Assembly (NCBI GenBank): GCA_027627225.1
Contig: CM051034.1
Location: forward strand, 50,476,081 to 50,540,080
Direction: 5' to 3'
DNA from: Congeria kusceri
Taxonomy: Eukaryota; Mollusca; Bivalvia; Myida; Dreissenidae
DNA length: 64,000 nt
Made by a program: the position numbers and the translations under genes. Positions 12,111 through 64,000 of the stretch are shown here, in pieces. The notes beneath the pieces are model-generated. The model ran no database searches. It had not been told where the DNA came from and was given only the letters and a program-made list of their open reading frames with translations. Every line of letters begins with the position of its first letter. Within the stretch, counting starts at the first letter, position 1.

Positions 12111-12112
12111 TA

Positions 12113-21970: not shown

Positions 21971-22020
21971 AGGTAGTTTAACAACGTCGGCTTACTGCGT
22001 CTTCGCTTAAAGGAGAAAAG
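21971..22020 (+). promoter_or_regulatory. P1 5' untranslated exon (3' end)
   Basis: The sequence CTTCGCTTAAAGGAGAAAAG is followed by the splice donor GTATTG. The same exon-end motif precedes P2 (31,688), P4 (49,890), P6 (61,869) and an orphan site (61,629). Every matching coding exon 1 begins with a splice acceptor just before its ATG. Conservation at the exon end across paralogues supports a spliced 5' leader. Its upstream limit cannot be seen. Confidence 0.5.
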
Positions 22021-22615
22021 GTATTGCTTATAGATATCTATAATATATTACAAAAACGAAATGCAAACACGTACTTATATTGATTGTGAAATCGAAAGTA
22101 GTGATTTAAATTACACTAATAAAGATGAAATTAAATGTTTAACTTTGTAGCCTATTGCGTATTTATATATATGCAATAATGACATTAAATAATTATAATT
22201 TTAAACCAATTTATGTATCTATATTTTTCCCGTGTCTTAAAACGCATAACTGAACTCTCCTTGCAGTTATCTCCCATGTTAAGTTTATGTGTTAAAGATT
22301 CACATGTAAATATAAAAAAATTTGATGGTGTTACATGAGAGTTATAAATGCTTGTTACATATACAATAGACCGTGTTACATATACACTATACCCTGTTTT
22401 TTTGTCATTTACACTAAAAATGTACCAAGCTGTGGCTCACAACTGTGCTTACTTGCGCGATCTGTACATTAACACATTGTAATTCTTACCAATCAATATA
22501 AGATGTAACCGTCATTCTAGTTATGTTGTTAAAGTTATGATGATTTATAATGTGCAGCTATGCAGAGCTTTTCTATGTGTAATTACATTATTTAAGAAAG
22601 TATCATTATTTCAGG

Positions 22616-23503
22616 ATGGCTACGTCTTCAGACACGTGCGGACTTTGCTTTGCAGAGGCCGTGTTTGGGTTTTGTGAAAACTGTAGTCTTCGGCTTGGCG
22701 AAAAATGCTTTTCTAATCATAAGAAAGTCGTTATATTTACAGACCATATAACTTTCCCTTTGGACAAATCAAACCAAAATTCCATTAAACCAGTACCGAT
22801 AGAAAGAGACATACACGAACGAAAATGTCCAGCGCACGAAACTGACACGCTGTCGCTATATTGCGGAAAGCATGACGTCACCATTTGTGGTCGCTGTATT
22901 CTTGCAAATCACATGGCTTGTAAAGCTGACATCATTGATTTACAAAAAACAACGTTTGATGAGCAAAAGATAAATGAACTTCTATGTACTCGGAAACAAG
23001 TCGAGGGTGAAATAGGTGAGCTACAAGTTCGGGTAGACGAAAATGTCAAACTGAATGATGAATGTAAAACAACGTATATAAACTCAATTAAAGATTTCCG
23101 AAAGAAAATTGATGCTAGACTTGACCAATTACAGTTACTTGCAGAAAGGGCTGGAGAGAACAAGCACAAAGAAAATATGAAAAGTCTTACTGAAATTGCA
23201 AAGGCGTGCACAGACGCAACTCTTCGAATGCAGGAAGGAAACGAGCTAATTAAAGAACTGTCTCAGAAAAAACAGGAACGATATTTGTTCATATCTTCTA
23301 AAAGACTTGAAAACGAACTGAATGGGATCAGAACAACTATTAAGCAGTGTAAGGCCAAAATCCACATTGCACAATTTACCTTTAAAGAGCACCCTAAAAT
23401 TGTAAATACGCTTCAAAAAGAAATTAGTGAAATTGGAACGCTCCAAGAGGCATGTGATGGGAGCGAAGAAGTAGTTGAATTAAAACCAAATCTCGAAGTG
23501 AAA
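22616..23503 (+). CDS. P1 exon 1: B-box/B-box/coiled-coil protein
   Basis: This exon encodes 296 residues before the donor GTAAGT at 23,504; reading past it adds ten residues and a stop. The acceptor TTATTTCAG lies immediately before the ATG, so this is the first coding exon. Residues 8-44 form a B-box1-like site (C8, C11, C20, C23, C31, H35, H44). Residues 71-102 form a B-box2-like site (C71, H74, C83, H86, C91, C94, H99, C102). About residues 112-290 are charged heptad-rich sequence typical of a TRIM coiled coil, with the phrase GTLQEACDGSEEV near the end. No RING precedes the B-boxes, unlike classical TRIM ligases. Exon 1 ends in phase 0 and joins the zinc-ribbon exon at 24,568. By family analogy it is likely a cytoplasmic multimeric scaffold or ubiquitin-pathway protein; substrate unknown. 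It differs from P6 at 13 of 296 positions. Confidence 0.85.
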
Positions 23504-24247
23504 GTAAGTACATTTACAATATATTCAATGACTTAAATCAATTATGTAAGAATTTTTTCCGCGCGGAATCCGTGTATCACCGATTCTGTCTGTGAGGCGA
23601 AATAATAAAATACCTAAATTGAATATATCTCTATCTAAACTATTTCATGCACATATACATATTTAAATGTGCGGTCATTATTGGACGTGTTATAACATTT
23701 AAACAAAGTCACAATAAGCTAGAAAAAAACTTTCAGTAAAAGCAATTTAGCAGCAGTATTTTGCCCCAGGACTTTGTTTCGAGTGTAAATTCAACAATGC
23801 AAATCAAGCAAAGTAAACTCTGTTTCATCGATACAACTAAATTTAATTGTAAAATGGCCGTCCAATTTTGACTTTGTTGAATTTTGACTTTATTATTTAA
23901 AATAATACAACCGTTTCACTCTAACTTAGAAACATCCACATATTGTTTCTTGGATTTATCGAGTCAGTTTTAATGACACGTATTGACCATCATGCTTATA
24001 TTTTAATGAATGTACATATATTTTGAAGAAATTTCCTTTATTGAACAAAGCAAAGCAATATAAATTATCTGGTCAGAGCCCTATCGTTGACACTGATTTG
24101 CGGTTAATTTTGAGGTATTAATATAATCTGTAGCTCGCCCCAAAATAATTACACAAATACTTACTTATTTGGATTGTGCTGAGTAAGTCGATTTCTGTTT
24201 TCATCTACAAAGACTTTACGTGGACTTGACATGTTGATTAATATATA
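23504..24247 (+). other. P1 intron 1, 5' part
   Basis: Intronic sequence after the GTAAGT donor. It is closely matched by the start of the P6 intron (63,685-64,000) and more loosely by 56,272-56,870 in P5. No further exon is evident before the zinc-ribbon exon. Confidence 0.6.
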
Positions 24248-24510
24248 TGAGTTGCGTCGTGGGAAAACAAGTCTTAATGCATGTGCGTAAAGTGTCGTCC
24301 CGGATTAGCCTGTGCAGTCCGCACAGACTAATCCAGGACGGCACTTTCAACTTTTATGGTATTTGCTGTTTTAAGGAAGTCTCTTCTTAACATAAATCTA
24401 ATGTAGGCGGAAAGTGCCGTCCTGGATTAGCCTTTGCGGACTGCACAGGCTAATCCGGGACGACACTTTACGCACATGCATTAAGTCCGGTTTTCCCACG
24501 ACGCGCCTCG
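24248..24510. mobile_element. 263-bp palindromic MITE, copy 3 (in P1 intron 1)
   Basis: Same family as the copies at 8,729 and 12,113. It sits in P1 intron 1 between TA dinucleotides (24,246-24,247 and 24,511-24,512). The duplicated locus in P5 has the uninterrupted site GATTAATATATATGTACAG at about 56,861-56,879. This defines both boundaries and the TA target duplication directly, and shows that insertion came after the duplication or was lost cleanly from the other copy. Confidence 0.92.
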
Positions 24511-24567
24511 TATGTACAGTTAGCATACTATTTCAATATACCTGTAAATACTTGTTTAATATTTCAG

Positions 24568-24631
24568 AATATACTCTGTGCCCAATGCGGCGCCTGTATA
24601 CCAAAAGGGTGGATGTTTTGTCCTGTGTGTG
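24568..24631 (+). CDS. P1 exon 2: zinc ribbon
   Basis: The exon is bounded by the acceptor ATATTTCAG and donor GTATGT and is 64 nt, entering in phase 0 and leaving in phase 1. It reads NILCAQCGACIP, then KGWMFCPVC. The ligand pattern is C-x2-C-x10-C-x2-C, typical of short zinc ribbons of the type CPNCGxxL..FCPxCG. P5 has a homologous exon with the same cysteine spacing although most other residues differ, which argues for selection on the zinc site. In the predicted protein it lies directly after the coiled coil, where P2 and P3 have a RING exon. Its role is inferred to be protein or nucleic-acid binding. Confidence 0.75.
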
Positions 24632-27292
24632 GTATGTTAACCTTACATATTTTAGAATGCTATTTCACGATACATCTCGTCAGTTTTCAAATTGTATTTT
24701 CCTATCTACTTTAACTACTACATAACAACCACAACCACAACCGCTACCACCATCGTAGAACATACTGTAGTACAATAGATTTGATTCCAGTGAACACAAT
24801 TTACCGTTATACACGCTATAGAGATCATTGTTCTTAAAGATTCCATCAATATATAATAGTGTCTGGAACAGATGAACAGTTCAATTGAAAAAAAGAAGAA
24901 AAAGAAAGAGCCTTCTTTTTAAAGTTCTTTCTATATTATGAAATACCGTGGAGATGTCACCTTACAACAGGCATTATTATTACTGTAGTGTTTTTCTCAC
25001 CTGTGCACGAGGCGATTATGAGTGACCTATTGTGGCAACCGGCCGTCGTCGGTCGTCAACAATCTACTCCAAATATCATCTAAAACACCTCGGTGGATCT
25101 TAACTAATAACAAACATAACCTCCATTTTAGACACTGAGTTATTTTAATATTTGTTACGTTTTTCGCTTATGTCGACTTTACATGATCCTGTAGATTTCA
25201 GATATGGTATTCAGTATGAGGATAAGAGTATGTTAGACAAGAACAATATCTCTGTCTAGGATTTGATTCATTTATGGCCCTTTTGGACAAAGATAATGTC
25301 TAAGTTGAGTTTGCTTATTAGGTTCCCTTATCCTGAAAGCAACTGAACATGTAGTATTGCGACGTTTCTGAGATCATTAATTACAATCATTCATTTTTGG
25401 AACTTAGGTGTGCTACCTAGGACCTCTTATACCCTCTTGTACGCTGTTGTTATAACTGGTTTGTTCAATACCCATTTTGTTGTTAATATTAAATAACATA
25501 TTTATTGTTTATTGATCCTTTGTCGATATCGCATTTATAACGAGAAAAACACGCACGAACTGATATTTTTTACATTAAACACCATTACATGTTATCTAGA
25601 ATATAACAGGTTACTATTATACAAAAATAAAATCTGACATCAAGATAACAGTTCAGCCCTAGAAATGATGAACACTATCAGTCTGTCCAGAAAGTGACAT
25701 CAAGATAACAGTTCAGCCCAAGAAATGATGAACACTATCAGTCTGTCCAGAAAGTGACATCAAGATAACAGTTCAGCCCTATAAATGATGAACACTATCA
25801 GTCTGTCCAGAAACAGTACTAGTGTTATCGCGTTGTCATAATTATGAACCTTTTATCCAAATATGCACGGTGTACATTAAAACCATTTATTATAAACCTG
25901 TTTAAAATCTTAACCAAATACATGCTTTATCAATCGGTGAAATACATGTCGACAGAACAAAATCCCGTATTATGCTACTCGCTATTTTTCCGATCCCGTA
26001 TTACCATACTAGCTGGACTACTTTTTTAATGACGTCATCATAGAGTTATGTAAACATACTAATTTTTTGTTCTCGGTCGCTAAACTAAAGCATTACTTTA
26101 AATGCGGACACCAAATTGAATGTCAGCTACAATGTCTCAGAAATTTACGATCGACAACTGAGTTTTAAACCGGCAACAGCACATGACTGTTTAACTTCTG
26201 ACCTGGAACACGACCACTACGAACGCCGCCATTTATGATTTAACCCTCACAAATCCCTAAAATTCTCAATCGTTCCGTCGCAGCGTTTCTATCAAAAACC
26301 ACTTTGCCAAGTCCCCAACACAGAAACAAACGAGACTTCGCATAACAGAAAATGACGGCCTTTTATTAATTGCGATCAATCCAGAAAAGTTAAGAGTTGA
26401 TACACATGCCATGTTTTTGTTCCACATCCTGTTTCATGTTTGTTTACATGATGACGTCATTTATATTATTCTTACGCATCCTACACAATCAAAATACGGC
26501 GTACCATTTTAGTTATTATTGTAGTTTTTAAACAAATAACACACGGGATGTGCACATTTTCAGTTTGTTGCGGTATATGATAAAAAGAATATTACCTTAG
26601 TCAATTCTTCCAAGAGAATAAGTCTTGTGGCTTGCGTTATTTAGTATCACACTCGAGGCACCGCCTTTGGTGTGATACGTCATCACACAAGCCATTCGAC
26701 TAATACATACTCTGGGAATAATTGACTAGCATATTATTCCGTATGTATTCGCTTGTATATAAGTAAAGTAAATTTACTCCACAATGCTGCATGAGCTCAC
26801 GGTGATGGCATTGTGCTGGATTAGGTCAGGTTGTTGAGTTCAAAATGGCAACTTTATCACGAATTTATACGTGAATTTATACAATGTGTAAGTATATAAC
26901 CCATATTTTGTAATGTGTTACGTGTAAAAATAAATTTTATTTATGTTTTCAGCTTCCAGACTATTTCAGTAATTAGATAACTTAAGTTGAAGACACGGGA
27001 GTGTACTGACGTTATTGTTCAAATGGCTATTCTTTATTTAAATCGGATTTATTTGTTGTGTTTTGAAGAAATCATACCGCGTTTTATGTTCTATGTTGTT
27101 AAAAAATAATTTATCTTCCCGTTTATAATGTTTCCTTCTGACTTATATCCTTGATATTATTAAATATACGAGTCGTACGTTATTGGTTATAATGTAAACA
27201 ATTTAACATGTATTTAATAACATAAAATCATAGATATTCATATTGTTTGTTTGAATGTCTTAATTAGTTTTTATCTATTTAGTTGCTTGCAG
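24632..27292 (+). other. P1 intron 2
   Basis: This long intron contains a degraded bivalve repeat at about 25,000-25,110 (GGCCGTCGTCGGTCGTCAAC, also at 57,845), the tripled 60-bp unit at 25,636 and AT-rich sequence matched in P5. No other exon fits the phase 1 entry before 27,293. Confidence 0.5.
25636..25813. repeat. 60-bp unit, three tandem copies
   Basis: A 60-bp unit beginning GACATCAAGATAACAGTTCA occurs three times with two or three substitutions. The corresponding P5 intron (about 58,400-58,458) has a single diverged copy, so the amplification is specific to the P1 locus. Confidence 0.9.
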
Positions 27293-27315
27293 AGCTAGGA
27301 CTAAACTCTATGTAG
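27293..27315 (+). CDS. P1 exon 3: terminal codons
   Basis: The acceptor TTGCTTGCAG is followed by a phase 1 continuation: the G left by exon 2 completes GAG, and the frame reads ELGLNSM then TAG. In P5 the homologous exon (59,093-59,115) reads ELGLNYV and stops at the identical position. Phase match and conserved stop in both copies support this tiny exon, which would make the P1 protein about 324 residues. A possible ATTAAA polyadenylation signal lies about 80 bp downstream. Transcript evidence is needed because an exon this short could be coincidental. Confidence 0.5.
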
Positions 27316-28464
27316 GTTGTGAACAGTACAACTGTAGTTGTGAGGCTTATTTGCCTTATACTCTAAGCATTGTTGTTACATTCTCAGAACTGTTAAAGGG
27401 GTATTAAAACATTGAATGTCGTCCTGTAAAATCATAAAATGGTATTCGTTTACTTTTGTTCAAACTAACCACGGCCTGAAATTTTCGTCTTTGCCATTAT
27501 TGCCCTCTTGTTCCTTTTGACCGTATCGTAATAATAATTTGCAGTTATCATACTTGAAACTGATATGCGATGACGAATCTCTTTGTTTGTATCTACATGT
27601 AAATATAATACGCTCTATTGAATTAAAAAAAAAATCATTATTTCACATTTTCTGACTATTAAAAACAATTCAGAAACATGGTTTAGTAGTTTTACTGCTT
27701 CATTGCGTAAAATGATTTTACCGAAAATAAATACATTTAAGCAATTTGTTTAAGATTAAACAACAAAAAGTCAGTATCTTACTCAAAAGAGGACGAGTTA
27801 ATGAGGGTTTCCTTCTATAATATATCATGTGAAAAAACATTTAGAAGATATCTTTAGTCGGCTATGGCATTGTTTTTCAGGTCCCTGGAAGTCGAAATAA
27901 AACAAACATAAACAAAACATATTAAAGGCACCCTCGTTTTCGTCTGTATGTAAATTATATGTACACAGTCTAATTTATTTCTGATCGAAGTACAATGTTT
28001 ATCATTTGTTTAATTAAAATGCATAAACGTAAACTAAGAAGTTTTGCGATGCGATTTAAATACAATCTTCATAGATCTACGTTATAGGGCAGACAACTGC
28101 TAACGGATCTGCGAGTATGTAATAAAAAATGACATCTATGCCTTTATATTAGAGTTTCAAACAACGAAAAAAGGTCCGAAATAAATAATGTATTAGCAAA
28201 TACATTAGTACACCAATTTTGCGTAAGAAAACAGTTTAATCCTACAAGTTAAATAAACAAGCACGTTGGAAATTATATTGAAAAACGACATTCTTATGAA
28301 TCTATAGGACAGCTACATTTAAAATGTAATATCATTGAAAAAGTTTGTGTCACACTCGATATATTACTCAGAAAACACTATTCTGTTCTGGCGAACGTTC
28401 GTTTCTTGTAATCGGAAATTATTCAAATAGAATTGGTTTAATTCTACGACTATTCCATGCTTAT

Positions 28465-28760
28465 GCAATACAATGTTATGAGGTAGTTTTTATTTGCATT
28501 TACATGTATTAATCCTGGTCTAAGTGCAAGTTTCGGCATACCGTTAAATTGGTTTAACAATCACCCCATATGGTTTGCGGTGACCACAGTTTTAATCATA
28601 TATGTGTTCTGTGTTTGTGTTGTGTTGTTCTCATTGCGTTGTGTTGTATTAGTTATTGGCCACTTGCCTGAAATAAAGCACCCTAGGACTTATGGTATTA
28701 TAAAATGTTGGCTACTATTCGTCACTTTTATAACACTGAGTTCATGTATTACCCAAGATT
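28465..28760. repeat. Dispersed repeat family R, copy 1
   Basis: The block shares GGTTCGGCATACC-like and ACAGTTTTAATCATAT-like phrases with 60,300-60,590 (duplicate locus) and, more distantly, with 35,455-35,720 beside P2. Presence at the unrelated third site marks it as a mobile or dispersed repeat. The class is not identified. Confidence 0.5.
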
Positions 28761-29224
28761 TGAGAATATTATTTAATGAATTTGGCACATGTGTAAGATT
28801 CTGGCATCAGATATGACTATATCACAATTAATTATGGACATTTAATAGCAGTGTAAGTAGAACATAAATATATTAACTCAAATAATATGCATAACACAAC
28901 TTGAATAATTTCCAATCAGGGACTTCAATGCTCAAGAAGGTAATTTAACTAAATTTAAATATTTAGGCCTATATTTGGGCTTTATAAAATTACGAAAACG
29001 TAAAAAACTACATCTTTGTGCTATTTAAACAAAAAGGCATAACGTCAAAAAAAGGATAATACATCATGACGTCATTTTGACGTCAAACTGTAATATTAAA
29101 TTACTAGAAATGAGTGCACATACATAAAAACGCATGACGAATAGAGTGATAAAATAATAATAAAGGGATTATACTAATAAAAATTAATCCTCAAAATGCT
29201 AATAATATAAAACTATTTTTTATT

Positions 29225-29475
29225 GATAGCAATGATGAAATGTTGGTGATGTGAGTATAAAGATGGTATCGATGGTACTGATGATGATAATTATGTTATT
29301 GACGATGATGAAGATCGTGATTATGATGGTTGTGGTGATGATTGTAATGGTAATTAAACTGAGGATGTTGTTATGATAATGTTATGATGATGATTATAGT
29401 GGTGGTGATATTAAGTTGATGCTGATGATGATGATGATGGTGATGAGGATGTTGAACTAATTGACGAGGTTGAGG
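29225..29475. repeat. GAT/GTGATG-rich microsatellite
   Basis: Degenerate GATGAT and GGTGATGAT runs. The homologous tract in the P5 duplicate is at about 61,000-61,225 and differs in length and interruptions. Confidence 0.85.
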
Positions 29476-29574
29476 ATGATAGTACTTATGATAATGGCAG
29501 TGTTGCTTTTTTGTTTAAATGTAATAAGGGCGACATTTTGCTAGAGAGAAATATTATAAAAAGAAACATGATTT

Positions 29575-32610: not shown

Positions 32611-33499
32611 CCGTTTCCGTTCAATAACGATGTCTTTCGACGTGTGTGGTCTTGCTTGAACGAACCTGTGTTTGGATTCTGTGAAAATTGTAGTATTCGA
32701 CTTGGCGAGAAATGCTTTGCAGTTCATCAAAAAGTATCTATATTTACTGACCATAATATATTCCCGTTGGTTAAATCAAACCAGACCGCAACTATCCCGG
32801 CACAGAGAGAAAATGACATTCACGAACAAAAGTGTTCTATTCATGAAACCGACACTCAATCGTTTTATTGTGCTAAGCACGGAACCACGCTTTGTGGACG
32901 CTGCATGCGAAACGATCACAGGCCATGCTTGGATGACATTATTGACCTTCACGATGTTAGGTTTGATGAACATCGGATGAATGAACTTATGAAAACACTG
33001 AAACAATTTGAAGAAGAAATTAACAAAATAGAAGTCCGTATTGCTAAAAACAACCAATCAAAGGATGAATATAAGGCAACATGTATGAAATTAAATTCGA
33101 GAATATTGCGCAAAGTTGCAAGCAAGACTTGATCAGCTAAGAGAAATAGCAGAAAAAAACACGCACGATAAACACAGTGAGAATGAAAACATTCTGCACA
33201 AGTTTGAATATAAATGCTTGGAAACCAAAAACCGCATTCAAAAAGAATGTGATTTTATTAAAGAATTGTCACAAAAAAAATCACGAGCGACGTTTATTTG
33301 TCCTTTCAAAATAATTGGGGAATGACGAAGATTAAATAAATGCAGTTATTCGACAGTCGAACTTGGAAAACATTTTAAAATACACCTTTGTAGAGAAAAC
33401 AATAATTGAACGTACCAAAACGACTTCACTGACATTGGCACGATTCAAGAGGAATGTGACGGAAGTGAAGAATTTGTTGAAGACAAAACTAATAAAGAG
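32611..33499 (+). pseudogene. P2 exon 1: broken B-box/coiled-coil exon
   Basis: The acceptor TTTTTTCAG lies at 32,602-32,610 and ATG at 32,630. After MSFDVCGL one base is missing in what should be the C11 codon, so the frame breaks. The downstream frame then reads LNEPVFGFCENCSIRLGEKC, the B-box1 remainder, and the B-box2 ligands are preserved. A second frameshift occurs at about 33,090-33,115, inside the coiled coil, and a third in the A-rich run near 33,276-33,284. The donor GTAAAC follows AATAAAGAG in phase 0. P2 is closest to P3 and P4, sharing DDIIDLHDVRFDEHR-type sequence. The breaks are clear, so this copy is not expected to make the full protein, although assembly error in A-runs could explain one of them. 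Confidence 0.8.
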
Positions 33500-34170: not shown

Positions 34171-34337
34171 GTCACTCCAGAGGAAATAAACGGACCATGT
34201 CCTATTTGGAAGGAAAAATATACCCAACCTAAGAAGCTTGTTTGTAGTCACATCTTATGTACGGAGTGCATCGACATATCGCTGTTGATAAAAAATAGTT
34301 GCCCCTACGTATGGACGAGCTTGTGGGATCATCAAAG
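34171..34337 (+). pseudogene. P2 exon 2: degraded RING finger
   Basis: Bounded by the acceptor ATATTACCAG and donor GTGTAC. It reads VTPEEINGPCPIW, then KLVCSHILCTECID and a final SCP segment. The C-x-H-x2-C-x2-C core of a RING is intact, but the second cysteine is W, and an extra base near 34,307 shifts the frame at the last CxxC. Ignoring that base, the 3' end reads ACGIIKG, resembling the sequence that follows the RING in DTX3/DTX3L-type ligases. The exon is 167 nt, one more than the 166-nt P3 exon. It enters in phase 0; the P3 exon leaves in phase 1. Confidence 0.7.
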
Positions 34338-34571: not shown

Positions 34572-34679
34572 GTGATCAGCCTCCTGGCGACTGTGTCGAG
34601 AGTTAATGGGTACTGCCATGGATACGAAACCTTTGGCAAAATAAGCATTATATACGAGTTTTCGAGTGGACTGCAATCG
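34572..34679 (+). pseudogene. P2 exon 3: Deltex C-terminal domain, part a
   Basis: Follows the acceptor AATTTTAG and ends before GTACTT. A phase 1 entry gives GDQPPGDCVES and then a frameshift; the next frame reads HGYETFGKISIIYEFSSG. The QPPG motif and GYETFG-x-I-x-I-x-YEF pattern are hallmarks of the first half of the DTC domain. The 108-nt length is one off the expected phase, consistent with the visible break. Confidence 0.75.
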
Positions 34680-34964: not shown

Positions 34965-35178
34965 GAAAATCATCCGTCTCCTGGTAAACCATACGAAGGG
35001 ATACATCGAAGAGCTTTAATCCCTAACAACACGCAAGGACAAAAAATTAGCAGAATGCTTGAAGTTGCCTTTCAAAGGAAGCTGGTGTTCACCATTGGAA
35101 CCTCGCGCACGACAGGTCAAGAAGGAGTTATAACGTGGAACGATATCCACCATAATCTGATTACAGACCATATTCGCA
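34965..35178 (+). pseudogene. P2 exon 4: Deltex C-terminal domain, part b
   Basis: Follows the acceptor AATATTTCTAG and is open throughout. It reads ENHPSPGKPYEGIHRALIP, then LEVAFQRKLVFTIGTS and VITWNDIHHN. The HPxPGKPY, FTIGTS and WNDIHH motifs are diagnostic of the DTC fold, which in Deltex ligases binds ADP-ribose/NAD and cooperates with the RING. Donor is the GTAAGG at 35,179. This is the best preserved DTC exon in the window and makes the Deltex assignment secure even though the copy as a whole is broken. Confidence 0.85.
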
Positions 35179-35829: not shown

Positions 35830-35951
35830 GATTGGGTTATCCCGACCCAACATATCTAGACAGAGTGACTGATGAGTTGAAAGCTAAGGGAGTAACGCTG
35901 GATGACGTTGACACAACAGATGAACTGGAAGGAACCTTGTCATCTGACTGA
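35830..35951 (+). pseudogene. P2 exon 5: Deltex C-terminal domain, end
   Basis: Follows the acceptor CACTTCTAG. After one carried base the frame reads LGYPDPTYLDRVTDELKAKG, continues for about 20 acidic residues and stops at TGA (35,949-35,951). GYPDPxYLxxVxxELKAKG is the conserved C-terminus of DTX3/DTX3L-like DTC domains. The splice phase from exon 4 does not fit exactly, another sign of decay. Confidence 0.8.
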
Positions 35952-41364: not shown

Positions 41365-42244
41365 AACAGCATGCGGCATCAATAGATGCTTGTGGATTTC
41401 GCTTTATGGAACCCGTGTTTGGATTTTGCGAAAATTGCTGTGTTGGACTTGGAGAGAGATGTTTTTCTAATCACAAGAAAATTGCTATATTTACTGACCA
41501 TGTCATATACCCGTTGCATGAATCCACCCAAACTTCATACAACCCGGTGAAAATAGAAAACGACATCCACGAACAAAAATGCTCCATTCGTGAGACCGAC
41601 ACAAAGTCTCTATATTGTAAGAAGCACGATGTCACAATTTTTGGGCGTTGCATGCGTTCAGACCACAGGCCTTGTCTGGATGATATAGTTGACCTTCATG
41701 ATGTAAGATTTGATAAACATCGTACAGATGAACTTAAGACAACACTGAAAACATTGGAAAACGAAATAAGTGCGATAGAAGCCCGCATTGCTGAAAGCGT
41801 CAAAACAAATAATGAATGCAAATCAAAATACATGAAAGCCATTCGAGAATATAGCAAAAGGTTGCAAGCGAGACTTGACCAGTTGCGAAAAATGCAGAGA
41901 AAGCTATTCAACACACACTAAATGAAAGCAATATTTGTCGACTAGAAAGCAAATGCAAGGAAGCCAAACTCCGCCTTCAAACTCAAAGCTCTTTAATAAA
42001 CGAATTTTCACACAAGAAACACGAGCGACATGTGTTTATTGCGTCAAAAAGATAGGGGAAGGACGTGGATGAACTCAATACAATGATTCGACAGTCGAAC
42101 GTGGAAAACAGTATTGTAGAATTCAACTTTTTGCAAAATACAGCAGTGGAACGTGCACTGCAAAACGATTTCAATGAAATTGGAACACTACAAGAGGCGT
42201 GCATTGGAAGTGAGGAGGTGATTGAAGATATACCTGAGAAAGAG
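41365..42244 (+). pseudogene. P3 exon 1: broken B-box/coiled-coil exon
   Basis: Follows the acceptor TTTTACAG. The only ATG aligned with the family start (41,371) is one base out of frame. The family frame reads AASIDACGFRFMEPVFGF, so C11 is also lost (R or F in its place). B-box2 lacks C91 (VTIFGRC). A frameshift lies near 41,888 (RKMQRK), and an in-frame TAG replaces the leucine codon of KRLGKD at about 42,052. The normal GAG|GTAAAC donor is GAG|GCATAA. A MITE begins about 20 bp further on. Five independent lesions make this a clear pseudogene. An open frame from an internal ATG (41,406) still covers about 171 codons. Confidence 0.85.
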
Positions 42245-42265
42245 GCATAAATATTTAACAATATT

Positions 42266-42493
42266 TGACGCGTGTCGTGGGAAAATTGGGCTTAATGTAT
42301 GTGAGTAAAGTGTCATAGATTAGTCTATGCAGTACGCACAGGCTAATCCGGGACGACACTTTCCGCCTACAGTAGATTTATGTTTAGAAGAGACATCCTC
42401 GAACAGAAAATACCATAAAAGCGGACTGCACAAGCTGACCATTGAAGACATTTACGCACAAGCATTAAGCACGGTTTCCAACAACTTGCCTCA
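42266..42493. mobile_element. 263-bp MITE family, deleted copy 4
   Basis: The left end TGACGCGTGTCGTGGGAAAA and right end CAACAACTTGCCTCA match the family, and both internal cores are recognisable, but it is about 35 bp short and highly diverged. It lies just inside P3 intron 1. Confidence 0.7.
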
Positions 42494-42923: not shown

Positions 42924-43089
42924 GTAGCTGTAGAGGAACAGACTGGAACGTCTGCTATTTGTATGGATGAGTATTCTAATCTCAAGAAGCTTGGCTGTGG
43001 TCACATCTTCTGTTCAGATTGCATCGACCAATCGCTGAGCTTCGAACCAAGTTGCCTTGTGTGTTTTCACGTCTTAGGGATAATCAATG
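42924..43089 (+). pseudogene. P3 exon 2: RING finger with one lost cysteine
   Basis: Acceptor TTGATATTGACAG, donor GTATGC; 166 nt, phase 0 in and phase 1 out. The frame is open and reads VAVEEQTGTSAICMDEYSN, then LGCGHIFCSDCID and SCLVC. It is a C3HC4-type RING in which the first cysteine is replaced (TSAIC rather than TCAIC-like), while the C-x-H-x2-C-x2-C and C-x2-C pairs are intact. The sequence ends GIIN, just before the DTC linker. Confidence 0.8.
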
Positions 43090-43192: not shown

Positions 43193-43290
43193 ACATCCCA
43201 AATAAATCTGGGAAGAGGACTGTTACACGAAAATCGGGTCGCTGTACTGGATATGAAACGAAGAGGATACTCATTACATATGAATTTTTT
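43193..43290 (+). pseudogene. P3 exon 3: Deltex C-terminal domain, part a
   Basis: Acceptor CCAACAAGCAG. A phase 1 entry gives GDIPNKSGKRTVTRKSG, then GYETKRILITYEF and a stop in place of a donor. GYET..ILITYEF matches the first DTC strand pair. The QPPG motif has changed to IPNKSG. Confidence 0.65.
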
Positions 43291-43587: not shown

Positions 43588-43783
43588 GATATACATCTGT
43601 ATCCAGGTGAAATTATCCAGAGGTAACTCGAACCGCGTATCTACCTGACAATGAGCAAGGACAAAACATATGTAGAATGCTAAAAGTTGCATTTCAAAGG
43701 AAGCTAGTGTTCACCATTGGAACACAGGGAGCGATAATGTGGAATAGCATCATTCACAAAACGAACTATAAACCACATGCTAA
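43588..43783 (+). pseudogene. P3 exon 4: Deltex C-terminal domain, part b
   Basis: Acceptor TTTGTTCCAG. A phase 0 entry reads DIHLYPGEIIQR and stops; one missing base relative to P2 restores the frame as RTAYLPDNEQGQNICRMLK, continuing VAFQRKLVFTIGT. The catalytic-site motif is altered to WNSIIHK compared with WNDIHHN in P2. The donor GTATGT leaves phase 2. Confidence 0.75.
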
Positions 43784-44471
43784 GTATGTATTAATTATAA
43801 TGTGTCAAGATAATTTTTTTTTGTCGTATTTAAAATCTCTACATCTTTTCATATGTATGACACCATTAAACTTGTATTGATGTGTCGTGATACTGATTTA
43901 ATTTAGTACAGTATCACTGTTAACGTATTTTCACAAGTACCGCATTTTTATATTTTATAATGGGCATATAAGAATCTATATTCACGTACTTGTAATAGGA
44001 AAAATTAGAAAAATGATAATTACGTACCATAAGCATATACAATGTACATGTAATGCAATGTCTCGTCCGATTATGAATCTTTCATTATTAATTTCCACTA
44101 TTATTGTTACACATAACGTGAACTTCAATTGTACATTGATGGTATAGGGTAGATGTATGTATAAATAATTTATAAACTGTATATTTGCAAGTTTTCATTT
44201 AACATTGTTTGTTTAACGTTGACAGTAGCATGACCATACATTTGATACCGGTAATTGTTTTTTGTATAACTAGCTACAATCTGACCGAATATTATATACA
44301 TTTTAAAATTATCTACGAGTCATTATGAAATCCCCGTAAATTGTCACTAAAATTAAGACACAAATATATTCAACTCAAGTTTATATGTTTTAATAATGCA
44401 AACGTTTATATCTGCCTGATATTCTTGTGAATACGTGAATCCTCGCTGTAATGGGTACGTTCATTCTACGT

Positions 44472-50993: not shown

Positions 50994-51877
50994 ATGATGG
51001 CCACATCCTCAGACGTGTGTGGGCTTTGCTTGAACGAGCCTGTGTTTGGTGTCTGTGAAAACTGTAGTATTCGACTTGGCGAGAAATGCTTTTCTGTTCA
51101 TAAGAAAGTATCTATATTCACTGGCCATATCATATTCCCGTTGAACGAATCAAACCAAACTGCAAATATCCAAGTACCGAGAGAAAACGACATCCACGAA
51201 AACAAATGTTCGGCTCATGAAACCGACACGAAATCTTTGTATTGTATGAAGCACGATGCCACAATTTGTGGACGTTGCATGCGTTCCGACCACAGGTCAT
51301 GTCTGGATGACATTATTGACCTTCACGATGTCCGGTTTGATGAACACCGAACAGATGAACTTATGACAACGCTGACACAATTAGAAGAAGAAATAAACAC
51401 AATAGAAACCCGTATTGCTGACAACTTCAAATCGAATGATGAATGTAAGGCAACATGCATGAAAGCAATTACAGAATACAGCAAAAAACTGCAAGATAGA
51501 CTTAATCATTTGCGAGAAATAGCAGTAAAAGCCGTGACAGTTAAGCACAAACAAATGAAAATAATATTTGTCAAGTTGAAAATAAATGCAAGGATGTTAA
51601 ACAACGTATTATAAACGATTGTGATTTTATAAAAGACTTGTCAAAAAAGAAACACGAGCGACATTTGTTTGTCATGTCCAAACGATTGGGCAAAGATATA
51701 GATGAAATCAAAACAGTAATTCGAAAATCAAACTTAGATAATAACATTGTCAAGTTCAGGTTTGTAGAAAATTCAGCAGTTGAACATACAATGCAAACCG
51801 AATTCAGTGATATTGGGATGCTTCAGGAGGCATGTGATGGAAGTGAAGAGGTGATTGATGAAAACTCTGATAAAGAG
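50994..51877 (+). CDS. P4 exon 1: B-box/B-box/coiled-coil, one frameshift
   Basis: Starts at ATGATGGCC after the acceptor TTATTTCAG; either ATG could be used. The first 206 codons are open and carry both zinc modules with all ligands (CGLCLNEPVFGVCENC, then KCSAHETDTKSLYCMKHDAT and CGRC). The frame then shifts by one base near 51,548-51,555 in an A-rich run (AAGCACAAACAAATG). The other frame continues the coiled coil as KKHERHLFVMSKRLG and ends GMLQEACDGSEEV, then GAG|GTAAAC in phase 0. It could be a genuine frameshift allele, an assembly error, or a truncated 206-residue product. The rest looks conserved, so I keep it as a gene. It is closest to P2 and P3 in sequence but lacks their RING and DTC exons. 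Confidence 0.65.
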
Positions 51878-56926: not shown

Positions 56927-56990
56927 AATATATTTTGTAGATTTTGCAACGAATGGCTGCTAAAAGAGCAGCGTTTTTGTAATAATTGTG
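56927..56990 (+). pseudogene. P5 exon 2: zinc ribbon (intact exon in dead gene)
   Basis: Acceptor ATATTTCAG, donor GTATGT, 64 nt, phases 0 and 1 as in P1. It reads NIFCRFCNEWLLKEQRFCNN and a final C, with C-x2-C-x10-C-x2-C spacing. The non-cysteine residues differ strongly from P1, so the exon diverged under constraint on the zinc ligands before P5 died. It could still be used if joined to another first exon by recombination. Confidence 0.7.
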
Positions 56991-57734
56991 GTATGTTATA
57001 GTTACCTATTGTAGTATACTATTTCCCGATACATTTCGGGAGTTTTCAAATAGTATTTTGCTGTCTACTTTAACTTCTACACAAACACCTACAACCACAG
57101 CCGTCACAGCGTAGAACATATTGTAGTACAATATATTTGATTTCAATGAGCATAATTTACCGTTATACACGCTATGAAGAACATTGTTCTTGAATATTCC
57201 ATCAATATATAATAGTGTCTGGAACAGGCCAACTGTTCAATTGAAAATAATAAGAAAGACCCTTTTTTGAAGTTGTTTCTATTCTACGAAATACTGTGGA
57301 GATGTCATCATAAAACTGTATTGTTTTTCTCACCTGTGAACGCCTCTTTTTTCATTATATATAACCTTTTTTAACCATTATTATATGTCAGTATTAATAT
57401 CTTAATTACATATTTATTTAAGAAATTGCCCCCTTGAGGCCCTGTTCGATGACATAGTCCCTTTTAAGAGGAGTCGAGTCCAAAACATTTCGGGACGTAC
57501 GTCATTATTATATATATGCAAACCAGCGTTCATTAATTTATTTATTAAACCAAGCTGTATTTTTAAGAATTTATATATTGTATCTGCCTTTTGTGTCCGC
57601 GTTACATGAAACCTATCCAGATCGTGGGACGCAGATAATTGTAAAAACTTTCTGGACAAACAAGCACAATAATTTTGAATCACATTTCGTTTTTGATCTT
57701 GTTAATTAGAAAAAGATAAAACTGAGCCTATTCC

Positions 57735-57900
57735 GTTTACAGTCGGTGTTTGGTGAACAACTGGTCATGCAGTTCCTGTCCGACAGCGACTTCACGGACG
57801 ACCCCCTCCTGCCATGAGTGCCATGAGTGACCTATGGTGGCCACCGGCCGTCGTCGGTCGTCGTCGGTCGTCAACAATTCACGTCAAACATCTTCTCTGA
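57735..57900. repeat. GC-richer repeat fragment in P5 intron 2
   Basis: Includes CGGTCGTCGTCGGTCGTCAA, also found at about 25,043 in P1 intron 2, and a private GC-rich stretch open for about 25 codons (SVFGEQLVMQFLSDSDF and onward to TGA). The latter lies after a TTTACAG but is out of phase with exon 2, so I do not call it an exon. Confidence 0.4.
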
Positions 57901-59092
57901 ACCGCCTTGGTGGATCTTAACTTATAACACTCATAACCTCCATTTAGACACTTAGATATTTGAATATTTGTTACGTTTTTCGCTTATGTCGACTTTTCAA
58001 GATCCTGTAGATTTCAGATTTGGTATACAATATGATGAGAAGAGTATGTAGGACAAGAACATAACACTGTCAAGGATTTGATTCGTTTATGGCCCATTTT
58101 GACTAAACAAATTCATTTGTTTTCTAAGTTGCATTTTTTTTTTTAGGTCAATTGATCTTGAAAACAATTTAACATATAGTATCCCGACATAGGTGTGCTA
58201 CCTAGGACCTCTTATGCCCTCTTGTACATTGTTATTTTTCTAATAATCATTGTATTGTTAATATTAAATAACATTTGTATTGCATATCGATACCGCATTT
58301 ATAATGAGAAAAAATAGCACTAACTGATATTTTTACATAAGACACCATAACATGTTATCCAGAAAATAACTGTAGGTTACCATTCTAAAAAATAACAACG
58401 ACATAAATATAACAGTTCGGACTTAGAAATGATAAATACTATCAGTCCGTCAAAAACCAGTAGACTAGTGTTATCGCATTGTAATAATTATGAAACTTTT
58501 ATCAAAATATGTACCGTTTACATTAAGACCATATACCCCATTACATGTATGCAAAGTTGCAAAATTTGACAATTTGAAATTCTTCACATTTATTCGCTTG
58601 TATATAAGTAAAATAAATTTAGCCCATGGTGTTGGCAAAATTCCAACCTTGGTCATGAATGTTTACAATTTATTTCAGGTATATAACCCATATTTTGTAA
58701 TTTGTAACGTGTCAAACTAAACTGTATTTACAGGTTTTCAGGTACCTAAACTGTTTATTACTTGACTTAAATTGAAGAAACGGCAGTGTATTGACGTTAT
58801 TGCTCAGTTGTAAATGGCTCTTCTTTGTTTAAAACGTGATTTATTTGTTGTGTTTTGAAGAAATCATCCCGCGTTTTATGTTATATTTTGTTAAAAAAAA
58901 ATATTTTCCCGTATATAATGTTTTTCTTCTGACTGACTTATTCCCTTGCTATTGTTAAATATACAAGTCGTACGTAAATGATTATAGTATAAACACTTTA
59001 ACATGTGTTTATTTTAATAACATGTTATCATAGATACTCATATTGCATGTTTGAATGTCTTAATTGTTTTTTATTTATTTAGTTGCTTGTAG

Positions 59093-59115
59093 AGCTGGGA
59101 CTAAACTATGTGTAG
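59093..59115 (+). pseudogene. P5 exon 3: terminal codons
   Basis: Acceptor TTGCTTGTAG, phase 1, reads ELGLNYV then TAG, exactly parallel to P1 27,293-27,315. It is listed as part of the dead P5 copy. Confidence 0.45.
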
Positions 59116-61128
59116 TTGTGAACAGTGCAACTGTAGTTGTGAGGCTTATTTGCCTTATACTCTAAGGAATGTTGTTACATTCTCAGAATTATTAAAGGGA
59201 TATTAAACATTGAGTGTCGTCCTGTAAAATCATAACATGTTCTTCTTTCACTTTTGTTCAAAATTACCTCGGCAGTACCATTATGGCCATCTTGTTTATT
59301 CTGACCGTATCGTAATAATAATTTGCAGTTATCATACTTTAAACTGATATACGATGACGAATCTTTTTGTATGTATCTACATGTAAATGTAATACACTAT
59401 ATAAAATAAAAAAATCATTATATCACATTTTCTGACTATTAAAAACAATTCAGAAACATGGTTTAGTAGTTTCATTGTTTCATTGCGTAAAATGATATTA
59501 CAGAAAATAAATACATTTAAGCAATGTGTTTTAAGAATAAACAACAAAGTCAGTATCTTACTCAGAAGGGGGCAAGGATTTCCTTCCATAATATATCATG
59601 TGCAAAAAAACATGTTTTATTTAAACGATATCTTTGGTCGGTTATGGCATTGTTGTTCAGGTCCCTGTAAGGGGAAATTAAACCAACATAAACACACATA
59701 TTAAAGGCCGCCAAGTCCTTCGTGTTGGTCTGTGTGTAAATTATATGTACACAGTCGAATTTGATTATGATCCAAGTACAGTTTTAATCATTTGGTTAGT
59801 AAAATGCGTAAACGTGAACTAAGAAGTTTTGGGATGCGATTTACCTAAAATCATCATAGATAGGGAAGACAACTGCTAAAAGATCTGCGACTATGAATGA
59901 AAATTAACTTCTATGCCTTTAAATTAGAGATTTACACAACAAACAAAGGTCATAAATAAAGAATGTATTGCCAAATGCATCAGTACACCTAATTTGCGTA
60001 AGAAAACAGTTTAATCCTATAAACTAAAACAAACAAGCATATTCCCGTACGTAGGAAATTATATGGAAAAATGACATTCTTACAAGTCTAAAAAAAGCTA
60101 CATTTAAAATGTAATAATAATAATAATAAATAATAATAATAATAATAAATTTTAAATGTAATACCATTGAAATAATTTGTGTCACACATTATTTGTTACG
60201 CAGAAAATAATATACTGTTCTAGTGAACTTTAGATTCTTGCAATTTGATTATTATTCAAATATATCAGGTTTACATCTATGACTATTTGATGCTTATGCT
60301 ATGCAATGGTATGAGGTTAATTTTTATATGCATTTACACGTATTAATCCTGGTCTCAGTGAAAGGTTCGGCATACCTTGAAACTGGTTTAACAATCACCC
60401 CAATATGCTTTGCGTTGACCACAGTTTTAATCATATATGTATTCTGTTTTGTTTTTTTTGTTTATCATATTTCGTTGTGTTGTATAAGTTTTTCTCAAAT
60501 AAAGCATCCTAGGGCCTATGATATTATACCAGGTGTAATACTTTTCGTCAGTTTTTATAACACTGAGTTCATGTATTGCCTAAGATTTAAGAATATTTAG
60601 TTAATGAACTTGGCACTATTCTGTAATCGGATATGACTATATCACAAGTAATTATGAACATTTCATAGCAGTGTAAGTAGAACATAAAGATATTAACTCA
60701 CATAATATGCATAACATAACTCAGAATATTGTCCAGTCAGGGACTTCAATGCTCAACACTGTGCTATCACTCAATTTTAATATATAGCCCTATATTTGGG
60801 CTTTATCAAAATTACGAAAACTTAAAAAACTACATCTTTGTGCTATTAAAAAAAACAGGACATTTTGACGTCAAACTGTAACACTATATTACCAGAAAAG
60901 AGTGCACTGTCATCAAAAAGCATGCAGAATAGAGGGATAAAATAATAATAAAGGGATAATAAAAATGAAAATAAATCATCAGAATGGTAGCAATGATGAA
61001 TATGTTGGTGATGGGAGTATAAAGATGGTTTTGATGGAACTGATGATGATGATAATGATAATCGTGATTATGATGGTTGTGGTGATGATGATGGTAATAA
61101 AAGGGAGGATGATGTTATGACGATGTTA

Positions 61129-61162
<34 letters not shown>

Positions 61163-61599
61163 GGTACTGATGTTGATGCTAATGATGATGTTGATAATGA
61201 TGGTGATGATGATGATTAATTGACGATGTCGATGATGATAGTTATGAAAATGATGGCAATGTTGGTTTTTGACGTTATGTCATTTTGTTTAAATGTAATA
61301 AGGGCGACATTTTGCTTGAGAGAAGTATTACACAAAAAACTTAACTTCTTAAAAATGAAATCATTGAATATGAACATATTAGGGCCTATTACAGTGCCGA
61401 TTATAATTATGAACAGTGTTCAATTCAAAATATAGAGCCAAATTTGATCACAATAGAATACGGAACTAAAATGAAGAAATTATCCAGTGTTATCTGCCCT
61501 TGTCGCATCTTTTGTAAAGGACGAAGTTCGTCGTGTGCAGAAATAAGTGTTCTATTTTATTTTAACGTCATAGAAGTAACATTTATTCTGACAGAGGGT
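59116..61599. other. P5 3' flank
   Basis: No gene. It matches 27,316-31,640. It contains an AAT microsatellite at about 60,110-60,150, dispersed repeat family R at about 60,300-60,590, and a GAT/GGT microsatellite at about 61,000-61,225. Confidence 0.55.
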
Positions 61600-61629
61600 T
61601 ATACATTTTCGTCACTTGAAGAAGTGAAG
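61600..61629 (+). promoter_or_regulatory. Orphan leader-exon end (P2-type)
   Basis: GTCACTTGAAGAAGTGAAG is followed by GTATTT. It is the duplicate of the P2 leader exon end (31,688) but now lies 240 bp upstream of a P1-type leader exon. It could serve P6 as an alternative first exon or be unused. Confidence 0.4.
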
Positions 61630-61825
61630 GTATTTATGTGTATAACTTAGTGTAATACTAATAGTCGCAGTAATTAAACGGTGAACACGCCAACACTCTA
61701 TTTTGAAATCGAAAGTACACATGCAAATATAATCGCAGGATTTTGTCTAATAAAGAAATCGGAAAATATTGTGTTATTATTTTTTTTAAGGGCTCGACTT
61801 TGGGTACGACTTGGCTATAGAGCGG

Positions 61826-61869
61826 TAGTTTAACAACGGTTAACTGTGTCTTTGCTTAAAAGAGAAATG
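61826..61869 (+). promoter_or_regulatory. P6 5' untranslated exon (3' end)
   Basis: TAGTTTAACAACGGTTAACT leads to TTTGCTTAAAAGAGAAATG and the donor GTATTG. It aligns base for base with the P1 leader exon, with a few substitutions. Confidence 0.5.
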
Positions 61870-62552
61870 GTATTGCTTATAAATATCTTTAAAACCTTAC
61901 AAAAACGAAATGCAAACACGTACTTATATTGATTGTGAAATCGAAAGTAGTGATTTAAATTACAATAATAAAGACGAAATAAAATGTTTAACATTGTAGT
62001 CTCTTTCGAATTTATCTGTATGTAGTAATAACATTAAATAATTATAATTATAATTTTAAAACAATCTATATATCTATATTTTTCCCGTGTCTTAAAACGC
62101 ATAACTGAACTCTCCTTGCAGTTATCTCCCATGCTAAGATGTATATGTTAAATCTTCACATGTAACTATTCAAATGTTTGATGGTGATACATGAGTGTTA
62201 TACACGGTCGTTACATATACACTATACCTTGTTATATATACCGGTACTCTTTTATTTTTGTCTTGAAAAAACGATTTAAAATTAAAGCCAAATATATTTA
62301 TCAAAACTAACTTTTGATAATACAATCACCCCCTTCACAGAAATATGTAAGCAAAAGTAAAACTTGTTAGCTTGATAAGTTATGTACTTGTTTATAGATT
62401 TACGAATCAATAATCCTTTTTTAATTCTATATACTATTTAATAAGTAGCCAATTGTATAGTTTATATATAGTTTATACACCACCCAATGCTCCCTATTCA
62501 TGACAACGGTATTGTGTGATTTCGTAATTAGCCATTGGTTTCTCAAAAATTA

Positions 62553-62594
62553 CAAAAATGCTTTTCTAGTCATAAGAAAGTCGCTACATTTACA
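62553..62594 (+). pseudogene. Relic of exon 1 upstream of P6
   Basis: AAAAATGCTTTTCTAGTCAT and onward through AAGAAAGTCGCTACATTTAC matches exon 1 codons for KCFSNHKKV.IFT (62,883-62,922) at roughly nine of ten bases. It lies in the leader intron about 240 bp before the real exon 1. P1 lacks it because of a deletion that joins its leader intron directly to CATTTACACTAAAAATG. Confidence 0.75.
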
Positions 62595-62796
62595 CTAAAA
62601 ATGTACCAAGCTGTGGCTCACAACTGTGCTTACTTGCGCGATCTGTACATTAACACATTGTAATTCTTACCAATCAATATAAGATGTAACCGTCATTCTA
62701 GTTATGTTTTTAAATTTATGATGATTTATAATGTGCAACTCTGCATATCTTTTCTATGTATAATGACATTATTTAAGAAAGAATCATTATTTCAGG

Positions 62797-63684
62797 ATGG
62801 CTACGTCTTCAGACACGTGCGGACTTTGCTTTGCAGAGGCCGTGTTTGGGTTTTGTGAAAACTGTAGTCTTCGGCTTGGCGAAAAATGCTTTTCTAATCA
62901 TAAGAAAGTCGTTATATTTACAGACCATATAACTTTCCCGTTGGACAAATCAAACCAAAATTCAATTAAACCAGTACCAATAGAAAGAGACATACACGAA
63001 CGAAAATGTCCAGCGCACGAAACTGACACGCTGTCGCTATATTGCGGAAAGCATGACGTCACCATTTGTGGTCGCTGTATTCTTGCAAATCACATGGCTT
63101 GTAAAGCTGACATCATTGATTTACATAAAATAACGTTTGATGAGCAAAAGATAAATGAACTTCTATGTACTCGGAAACAAGTCGAGGGTGAAATAAGTGA
63201 GCTACAAGTTCGGGTAGACGAAAATGTCAAACTGAATGATGAATGTAAAACAATGTATATAAACTCAATTAAAGAATTCCGAAAGAAAATTGATGCTAGA
63301 CTTGACCAATTACAGTTACTTGCAGAAAGGGCTGGAGAGAACAAGCACAAAGAAAATATGAAAAGTCTTACTGAAATTGCAAAGGCGTGCACAGACGCAA
63401 CTCTTCGAATGCAAGAAGGAAACGAGCTAATTAAAGAACTGTCTCAGAAAAAACAGGACCGATATTTGTTTATATCTTCTAAAAGACTTGAAAACGAACT
63501 GAATGGGATCAGAACAACTATTAAGCAGTATAATGCCAAAATCCACATTACAAAGTTTACCTTTAAAGAGCACCCTAAAATTGTAAACACGCTTCAAAAG
63601 GAAATTAGTGAAATTGGAACGCTCCAAGAGGCATGTCATGGAAGCGAAGAAGTAGTTGAATTAAAACCAAAACTCGAACTGAAA
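62797..63684 (+). CDS. P6 exon 1: B-box/B-box/coiled-coil protein
   Basis: Intact 296-codon first coding exon, acceptor ATTATTTCAG directly before GATGG, donor GTAAGT at 63,685 in phase 0. All ligands of both zinc modules are present (C8, C11, C20, C23, C31, H35, H44, then C71, H74, C83, H86, C91, C94, H99, C102). The coiled coil runs to GTLQEACHGSEEV. It differs from P1 at 13 of 296 residues, and the 200 bp upstream of the ATG is nearly identical to P1, pointing to recent duplication or gene conversion. Downstream exons lie beyond the window. By resemblance to P1 a zinc-ribbon exon is expected about 1.1 kb after exon 1, at 1 kb if the MITE is absent. Confidence 0.85.
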
Positions 63685-64000
63685 GTAAGTACATTTACAA
63701 TATATTCAATGACTTAAATCAATTATGTAAGAATTTTTTCCGCGCGGAATCCGTGTATCACCGATTCTGTCTGTGAGGCGAAATAATAAAATACCTACAT
63801 TGAATATATCTCTATCTAAACTATTTCATGCACATATACATATTTAAATGTGCGGTCATTATTGGACGTGTTATAACATTTAAACAAAGTCACAATAAGC
63901 TAGAAAAAAACTTTTAGTAAAAGCAATTTAGCAGCAGTATTTTGCCCCAGGACTTTGTTTCGAGTGTAAATTCAACAATGCAAATCAAGCAAAGTAAACT
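63685..64000 (+). other. P6 intron 1 (truncated by window edge)
   Basis: Nearly identical to the start of P1 intron 1, including CGCGCGGAATCCGTGTATCA. No exon before the edge. Confidence 0.7.

Follow-up and report, generated by a model that had tools for sequence, protein, structure and literature searches.

We analyzed a 64-kb window of the bivalve Congeria kusceri (Dreissenidae; C11:50476081-50540080, C11 being contig CM051034.1 of a 1.55-Gb genome), in which a first-pass annotation had described a six-member tandem gene family sharing one front end and ending in three kinds of C terminus. The shared front end, an exon encoding two B-boxes and a predicted coiled coil (exon 1), does occur there six times, in copies designated P1 to P6, and their coordinates place all six on the plus strand, as described; the same strand holds for every exon located below by window position. 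The six are not six kinds of gene. P1 to P5 make up one five-gene unit of about 40 kb (21972 to 61823), and P6 opens a second copy starting at 61824, which came into view when the window was extended with the neighboring stretches, so that P6 is the P1 of the second unit. Between the two units the exon-1 starts recur at offsets of 40.2 to 41.3 kb, and the matching pieces are mostly 92 to 98% identical, with some shorter ones at 86 to 92%. Some 0.8 Mb away (C11:51320001-51370000, that is, 51.32 to 51.37 Mb; loci L019 to L023) the unit occurs once more in inverted orientation, its identity to unit 2 reaching 99.4%; this block may be a haplotype left uncollapsed or a recent inverted duplication.

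A complete exon 1 requires 296 codons, and breakage was judged by the length of the stop-to-stop frame and by breaks in tblastn alignments. The longest frames run to 317 codons in P1 and 316 in P6 and to 179, 200, 229, and 138 in P2, P3, P4, and P5, respectively; exon 1 is thus broken in four of the six copies (P2 to P5) and unbroken only in P1 and P6. P1 is composed of an intact 296-codon exon 1 (22616 to 23503; B-box 1, B-box 2, and coiled coil, with the donor GTAAGT in phase 0), a 64-nt zinc-ribbon mini-exon of spacing C-x2-C-x10-C-x2-C (24568 to 24631; phase 0 to 1), which is a divergence hotspot and a probable half-RING (see below), and a tiny last exon ending in the stop TAG (25202 to 25236). 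P6 has an intact exon 1 at 62797 to 63684 and runs past the window end, its zinc-ribbon and tiny last exons lying just beyond it. P1 and P6 are therefore the live candidates in the window, each modeled as a 328-aa product of these three exons joined by GT-AG introns. Among intact copies, five pairs other than P1-P6 gave ratios of nonsynonymous to synonymous divergence (dN/dS) of 0.16 to 0.22 in exon 1, at dS values of 1.7 to 2.3 that are near saturation; the ratio for P1-P6 is 0.37. Counting of exon-1 frameshifts by pairwise DNA alignment was dropped, as an intact control (copy R) gave 33 false frameshifting indels at that divergence; this method was retained only for P2, in its RING and Deltex C-terminal domain (DTC) exons, and to size the insertion in P5.

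The remaining copies are damaged in various ways. P2 combines a broken exon 1 (32630 to 33499) with a RING exon (34171 to 34337) that has a 1-nt insertion and has lost a zinc ligand (CPIW versus CPIC in the relative L028), a DTC exon 3 (34572 to 34679) with a 5-nt deletion, a DTC exon 4 (34965 to 35178) with a 1-nt deletion, and a DTC exon 5 with a stop (35831 to 35951); these indels were called against L028, at 94 to 97% identity, and L028 itself has a broken exon 1. In P3, exon 1 (about 41372 to 42242) has lost its start codon and two B-box cysteines, the RING exon region (42924 to 43089, the end being approximate) has lost the first Cys ligand (SAIC), and what follows are remnants of DTC exon 3 (43210 to 43287) and DTC exon 4 (43590 to 43800), the latter with a stop near its start and with the loop and IHHKT motif changed, and a stretch matching DTC exon 5 of P2 (44474 to 44518). 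Judged by these lesions, the RING/DTC members of the window are pseudogenes. P4 exon 1 (50997 to 51877) is broken here, and its unit-2 counterpart has an unbroken frame of 324 codons; between P4 and P5 tblastn recovered no RING, DTC, or zinc ribbon (E ≤ 0.01). P5 exon 1 (55198 to about 56266) has an insertion of about 190 nt, stops, and a deleted splice donor, and is followed by a zinc-ribbon mini-exon (56927 to 56990) and a region matching the tiny last exon of P1 (58018 to 58052, placed by alignment offset). Of the tails listed in the first-pass annotation, RING and DTC are present in P2 and P3, and the zinc ribbon and tiny last exon in P1 and P5, as well as in P6; the unique terminal exon given for P4 is putative. 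The three kinds of tail seem better viewed as different stages in the loss of a single ancestral RING/DTC tail.

Beyond the window, at a distance of 41 kb, gene Q (C11:50581493-50593663) has the RING/DTC form undamaged. Its five exons yield 499 codons with no stop, joining exon 1, the RING exon, and three DTC exons via four GT-AG introns of phases 0, 1, 0, and 2; the phases given at first pass likewise held wherever they were checked (exon 1 ending in phase 0, the RING exon in 1, and the next two DTC exons in 0 and 2). In Pfam searches Q scored 155.8 bits for DTC and 33.1 bits for RING, both above the cut-off, and 23.5 bits for the B-box, just under the required 24.1. A RING leading directly into a DTC in one frame, as expected of the Deltex family, is thus present in Q, absent from the P1 and P6 models, and seen in P2 and P3 only as damaged copies. 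The TRIM arrangement, with the RING N-terminal to the B-boxes, is not found, since exon 1 opens with B-box 1 and the RING is exon 2. Within exon 1 the B-box profile PF00643 scored above the cut-off in P1, P6, P2, and P4 and at 13 bits in P5, with no match in P3, and across 11 aligned proteins 13 Cys/His positions in the two B-boxes never vary. An AlphaFold model of exon 1 predicts a helix over residues 116 to 217, with per-residue confidence (pLDDT) of 74 to 86 in the block at 121 to 210 (overall 67.5; pTM, 0.33). A Foldseek search with this model returned no match at E ≤ 0.001, the weak best hits being Toxoplasma conoid proteins, followed by B-box and KAP1/TRIM28 structures. The closest PDB entry to the Q DTC is 3pg6 (human DTX3L; E = 2.8e-38). 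When the DTX3L residues H707, Y719, and E733 (taken from PMC11460948) were placed on the Q/3pg6 alignment by manual count, Q was found to keep the first His of IHHKT and the Glu before LKAKG, to have Phe at the Tyr719 position, and to have one residue fewer before IHHKT.

The same fusion recurs in other bivalves. Among the 46 proteins matching the RING-DTC part of Q at E ≤ 1e-10, four (P0010, P0012, P0016, and P0018) bear precomputed labels for both B-box and DTC. A fifth fused homolog, Mya arenaria P0014 (LOC128241603), aligns with Q over its full length (32% identity; E = 9e-95), its B-boxes being identified by that alignment rather than by a Pfam score. Ruditapes P0012 is annotated as "DTX3L-like," and Mytilus trossulus P0018 (LOC134692234) has the order B-box, macro, RING, DTC. 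P0010 and P0016 come from contigs of 1.9 and 2.4 kb, sizes that would suit spliced transcripts. Three Dreissena polymorpha proteins (P0001, P0002, and P0050) combine B-box and DTC with no RING match; in P0050 the start of the DTC region (GTPEHADES...GQQS) stands in three tandem repeats, as if an exon had been triplicated. The splicing of exon 1 to RING and DTC exons, assumed in the first-pass annotation, is supported indirectly by the Q frame and these fused homologs, and the B-box/coiled-coil/RING/DTC fusion is probably real.

The zinc-ribbon exon occupies the exon-2 slot and runs from phase 0 to phase 1, as the RING exon does, and its cysteine spacing is RING-like. When 127,768 positions in six frames were scored against the second half of the RING (eight RINGs, our own and fetched), the P5 ribbon came third and the P1 ribbon fourth, with only the RINGs of P3 and P2 above them; against the first half they are unremarkable (ranks 6107 and 21238). 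At locus L033 (exon-1 identity to P1, 67%), a full RING lies 158 nt behind the exon-1 match, with DTC exon 3 further on. These observations make it somewhat probable that the ribbon is a half-RING by origin. A DNA search of the genome recovered nine ribbon copies, four of the P1 type and five of the P5 type, and all nine are 64 nt long, retain C-x2-C-x10-C-x2-C, and are bordered by CAG and GT.

Within this fixed frame the ribbon appears to diverge unusually fast. Including L034, a third P1-type copy at C11:46.955 Mb, the differences in ribbon versus introns are 6/64 versus 19/1634 for P1-P6 (p = 2.3e-4), 14/64 versus 44/1627 for P1-L034 (p = 8e-9), and 12/64 versus 47/1627 for P6-L034 (p = 8.5e-7); between the types, P1-P5 gives 27/64 versus 124/968 (p = 2.5e-8). 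Thus, in the three P1-type pairs the ribbon diverges 6 to 8 times faster than the introns with its four cysteines kept, and 31 of the 32 differences summed over these pairs, which are not independent, fall in codons where the encoded amino acid differs as well. The ribbon is also the densest 64-nt window of the 3-kb alignment in P1-L034 (14 differences; next, 7) and P6-L034 (12; next, 8). As a control we compared P5 with its counterpart in unit 2, where exon 1 is broken as well: the ribbon has 1/64 differences and the surroundings 87/2094, with fewer than 3 expected, a weak control that only fails to show a mutation hotspot. Diversifying selection appears to be the best explanation of the fast ribbon, the main rival being gene conversion or old shared variants.

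Across the genome exon 1 has at least 133 matches, 118 of them on C11, and 52 of the 133 run from position ≤6 to ≥281 without a stop by manual count of the table; this count is strict, in that the L033 match is marked as having a stop, yet its first 295 residues are open. DTC exons have 93 matches (83 on C11) and macro domains at least 120. Together with the unit duplication, the inverted duplicate, and the dead copies, these numbers bear out well the birth-and-death locus proposed at first pass. They agree by description with bivalve expansions reported by Regan et al. (2021; PMC8382680, consulted in extract), namely, the Deltex C-terminal orthogroup OG268 (257 genes; 13.1 per bivalve versus 3.6 in other mollusks) and the B-box-type zinc finger orthogroup OG708 (135 genes; 8.9 versus 0.1). 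The domain mix that the first-pass annotation took to be undescribed is present in public annotation, partly as "DTX3L-like," and the bivalve DTC expansion is published. Among the titles and abstract openings listed by searches of an open-license library, none describes the B-box-Deltex fusion as such; neither it nor the ribbon exon is described in the extract of PMC8382680, and the portions consulted of PMC9210306 and PMC7955679 contain nothing on a B-box/Deltex family.

The front ends joined to the Deltex cassette vary. We scanned upstream of 62 DTC exon-4 sites on C11 (same strand, within 30 kb, before the next DTC), taking as input these 62 of the 93 DTC rows (other exons and contigs being left out), 118 of the 133 B-box rows, and the 29 of 120 macro rows near DTC sites. 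Of these sites, 21 had only B-boxes, 18 only macro domains, 4 had both, and 19 had neither. B-boxes are so dense that proximity alone proves little, and four sites repeat the same spacing of 16.8 to 16.9 kb. At nine DTC sites between 50.5 and 51.5 Mb no macro domain was matched in the 30 kb upstream (same strand), the macro list being a lower bound. At L026/L027 three of the four long frames upstream of the RING-DTC match the macro domain. In seven loci starting at an exon-1 copy and covering 2.7 to 3.0 kb behind it, a RING was found in L033 and a ribbon in L034 and L036. A tree was built from 30 RING-DTC cores, 25 taken from the 46 proteins matched by Q and 5 from our own sequences; in it a single clade of the seven B-box-linked rows was rejected by the approximately unbiased test (p = 0.0058), the clade having been set after an earlier, discarded tree was viewed. 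Such non-monophyly would fit a history in which front ends were exchanged several times and equally one of repeated losses from an ancestor with the order B-box, macro, RING, DTC, which is still seen in Mytilus P0018.

Several tandem repeats and mobile-element-like sequences accompany the genes. A 60-bp minisatellite at 4055 to 7481 (57 copies, 97% match) is open for >1140 codons on both strands. A different 60-bp minisatellite stands behind P1 in three copies (25635 to 25813) and behind P6 over about 4 kb (L009/L010; continued window coordinates 65822 to 69843), a large change in copy number between the two units. Elements of 170 to 290 bp at 8710 to 8998, 12108 to 12394, 24238 to 24514, and 42253 to 42425 match one another, mostly in both orientations, like palindromic miniature inverted-repeat transposable elements, and one of them sits inside intron 1 of P1. 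An 18-bp tandem repeat occupies 20740 to 21524, and strand asymmetry is strong here (GC skew of −0.37 over 20001 to 22000).

On balance we judge that the window is probably part of a chromosome-wide, fast-turnover bivalve family of Deltex-type E3 ligases built on a TRIM-like exon and that the tail of P1 and P6 is a half-RING ribbon under selection. A number of observations weigh against this, several of them on the side of other accounts. The half-RING signal is modest once the cysteine columns are removed (of 127,768 positions, P5 then takes rank 274, with a shuffle p of 0.003, and P1 rank 3668, with a shuffle p of 0.021), and a RING profile hidden Markov model puts the P5 ribbon frame 6th of 2029 (E = 0.3), with P1 outside the best 12 listed. 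The ribbon might instead have been captured from another gene, as a zinc ribbon without kinship to the RING: its top Pfam match is Zn_Ribbon_1, at 24.5 bits against a cut-off of 25, and C-x2-C-x10-C-x2-C is a common spacing in zinc ribbons. We regard capture as possible, on the doubtful side, given that the slot and phases equal those of the RING exon, that the ribbons are the third and fourth best matches in the window to the RING second half with some similarity outside the cysteines, and that a RING is present in L033, one of the nearest exon-1 relatives outside the ribbon types. As for the rate of divergence, the hotspot was spotted post hoc and rests on four sequence types in non-independent pairs; taken by itself, the P1-P6 pair has an equally dense window at the end of exon 1 (6 and 6), and its exon 1 is also faster than its introns (22/888). 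By the NG86 (Nei-Gojobori) method, dS is raised in the ribbon as well as dN (0.13 and 0.30 for P1-L034, over very few sites), and the ribbon of L034, whose own exon 1 is broken, has Q15 and R16 in common with P5 and T5 and N11 with P6. Short conversion tracts or shared ancestry could give this pattern, and the locus is heavily duplicated, so the fast ribbon may conceivably go back to old variants, or to conversion by divergent ribbon donors, rather than to selection. We hold this to be unlikely, if not remotely so: among the nine ribbon copies found, the whole P1 or L034 ribbon occurs nowhere else and that of P6 recurs solely in its inverted duplicate, though donors could have been lost or be missing from the assembly, and the peak is confined to about one exon (60-nt windows, 24300 to 24989).

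A plainer account is ordinary decay, with the window a graveyard of a duplicated bivalve Deltex/TRIM-like family, P1 and P6 recent functionless truncations, and the ribbon a chance open stretch. The four broken copies, the damaged RING and DTC of P2 and P3, and the P1-P6 exon-1 dN/dS, which does not indicate strong constraint, all favor it, as does the fact that P1 and P6 are known as sequence models. It would leave unexplained that both copies keep exon 1, the ribbon exon, the splice sites, and the last exon open, that length, cysteines, and borders of the ribbon persist in all nine copies despite the 27/64 differences between types, and that nearly all P1-type differences alter the amino acid; we think it rather improbable. 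That B-box exons and RING/DTC exons belong to separate neighboring genes, as the large introns, the intervening copies, and the 18 of 62 C11 DTC sites with a macro domain and no B-box exon upstream might suggest, appears very unlikely in view of the intact, phase-consistent frame of Q and the fused proteins from Mya, Ruditapes, Mytilus, and D. polymorpha and on the 1.9- to 2.4-kb contigs. Still to be counted against the Deltex-family reading are that splicing of every copy in this genome is modeled; that exon 1 alone as a query retrieved only D. polymorpha proteins (three with P1, among 5.8 billion sequences and at 47 to 63% identity, and two with Q); and that L035, L037, L038, and L039 have no RING, ribbon, or DTC in the 2.7 to 3.0 kb behind exon 1, so that a tail near exon 1 is not general. 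Furthermore, the RING-less P0001, P0002, and P0050 have neither the IHHKT motif nor the DTC glutamate; they are probably not active ligases, and thus not every member can work like DTX3L.

Among known systems, the bivalve family resembles DTX3L, and the vertebrate PARP9/DTX3L pair, in the order RING then DTC and in the His and Glu positions kept by Q. It differs in its TRIM-like B-box/coiled-coil front end, its many copies, and the presence of members without RING or DTC, as well as in the Phe at Tyr719 and the shortened approach to IHHKT. With TRIM (RBCC) proteins it shares tandem B-boxes with invariant ligands followed by a long predicted helix; unlike in those, the RING, if present, comes after the coiled coil and not before the B-boxes, and the C-terminal domain is a DTC. 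The Mya P0014, Ruditapes P0012, and M. trossulus P0018 proteins have the same order of B-box, RING, and DTC, with an additional macro domain in P0018, whereas the live members of the window, P1 and P6, have lost RING and DTC.

From what the sequences show, namely, a family of related exons, a duplicated unit, dead copies, the intact Q frame, and the fused bivalve homologs, we infer the following mechanism. A RING-DTC cassette would have been joined to a TRIM-like B-box/B-box/coiled-coil exon, with macro-domain exons between them in some relatives. In Q-type proteins the coiled coil and B-boxes would assemble the protein, the RING would recruit ubiquitin-loaded E2, and the DTC would bind ADP-ribose and so direct ubiquitination to ADP-ribose itself or to ADP-ribosylated targets, a mode of action described for DTX3L and DTX2. 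In P1 and P6, the RING and DTC would have been lost and the RING exon cut to a half-RING forming one zinc ribbon; lacking both domains, the 328-aa product would probably act as a noncatalytic partner, adaptor, or decoy of its paralogs. The residues between the ribbon cysteines, which would have diversified under selection, may contact a fast-changing partner, possibly of a pathogen. The first-pass suggestion of ubiquitin or ADP-ribose signaling follows from the DTX3L homology; its immune component is possible, in view of the expansion, the turnover, and the interferon role of PARP9/DTX3L (PMC11251020 and PMC10221186), DTX3L and PARP9 being factors whose part in the vertebrate interferon response is now being worked out (PMC11251020).

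The findings tie TRIM-like scaffolds and ADP-ribose-directed Deltex ligases together in one expanded bivalve gene cluster, and if its copies in the window were taken for six genes with three kinds of tail, pseudogenes and a segmental repeat would be wrongly annotated. The ribbon mini-exon offers a defined target for direct tests of diversifying selection and partner recognition. More tentatively, an E3 family may here have made noncatalytic members by cutting its RING to a half-RING. The 21-residue ribbon would then serve as a recognition surface in which selection diversifies the residues around four fixed cysteines; a TRIM-like scaffold would carry it, and the cluster, of chromosome scale, would swap front ends of the B-box and macro kinds on its Deltex cassette. 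If true, this would be a bivalve innate-immunity gene complex with a dedicated, fast-evolving mini-exon.

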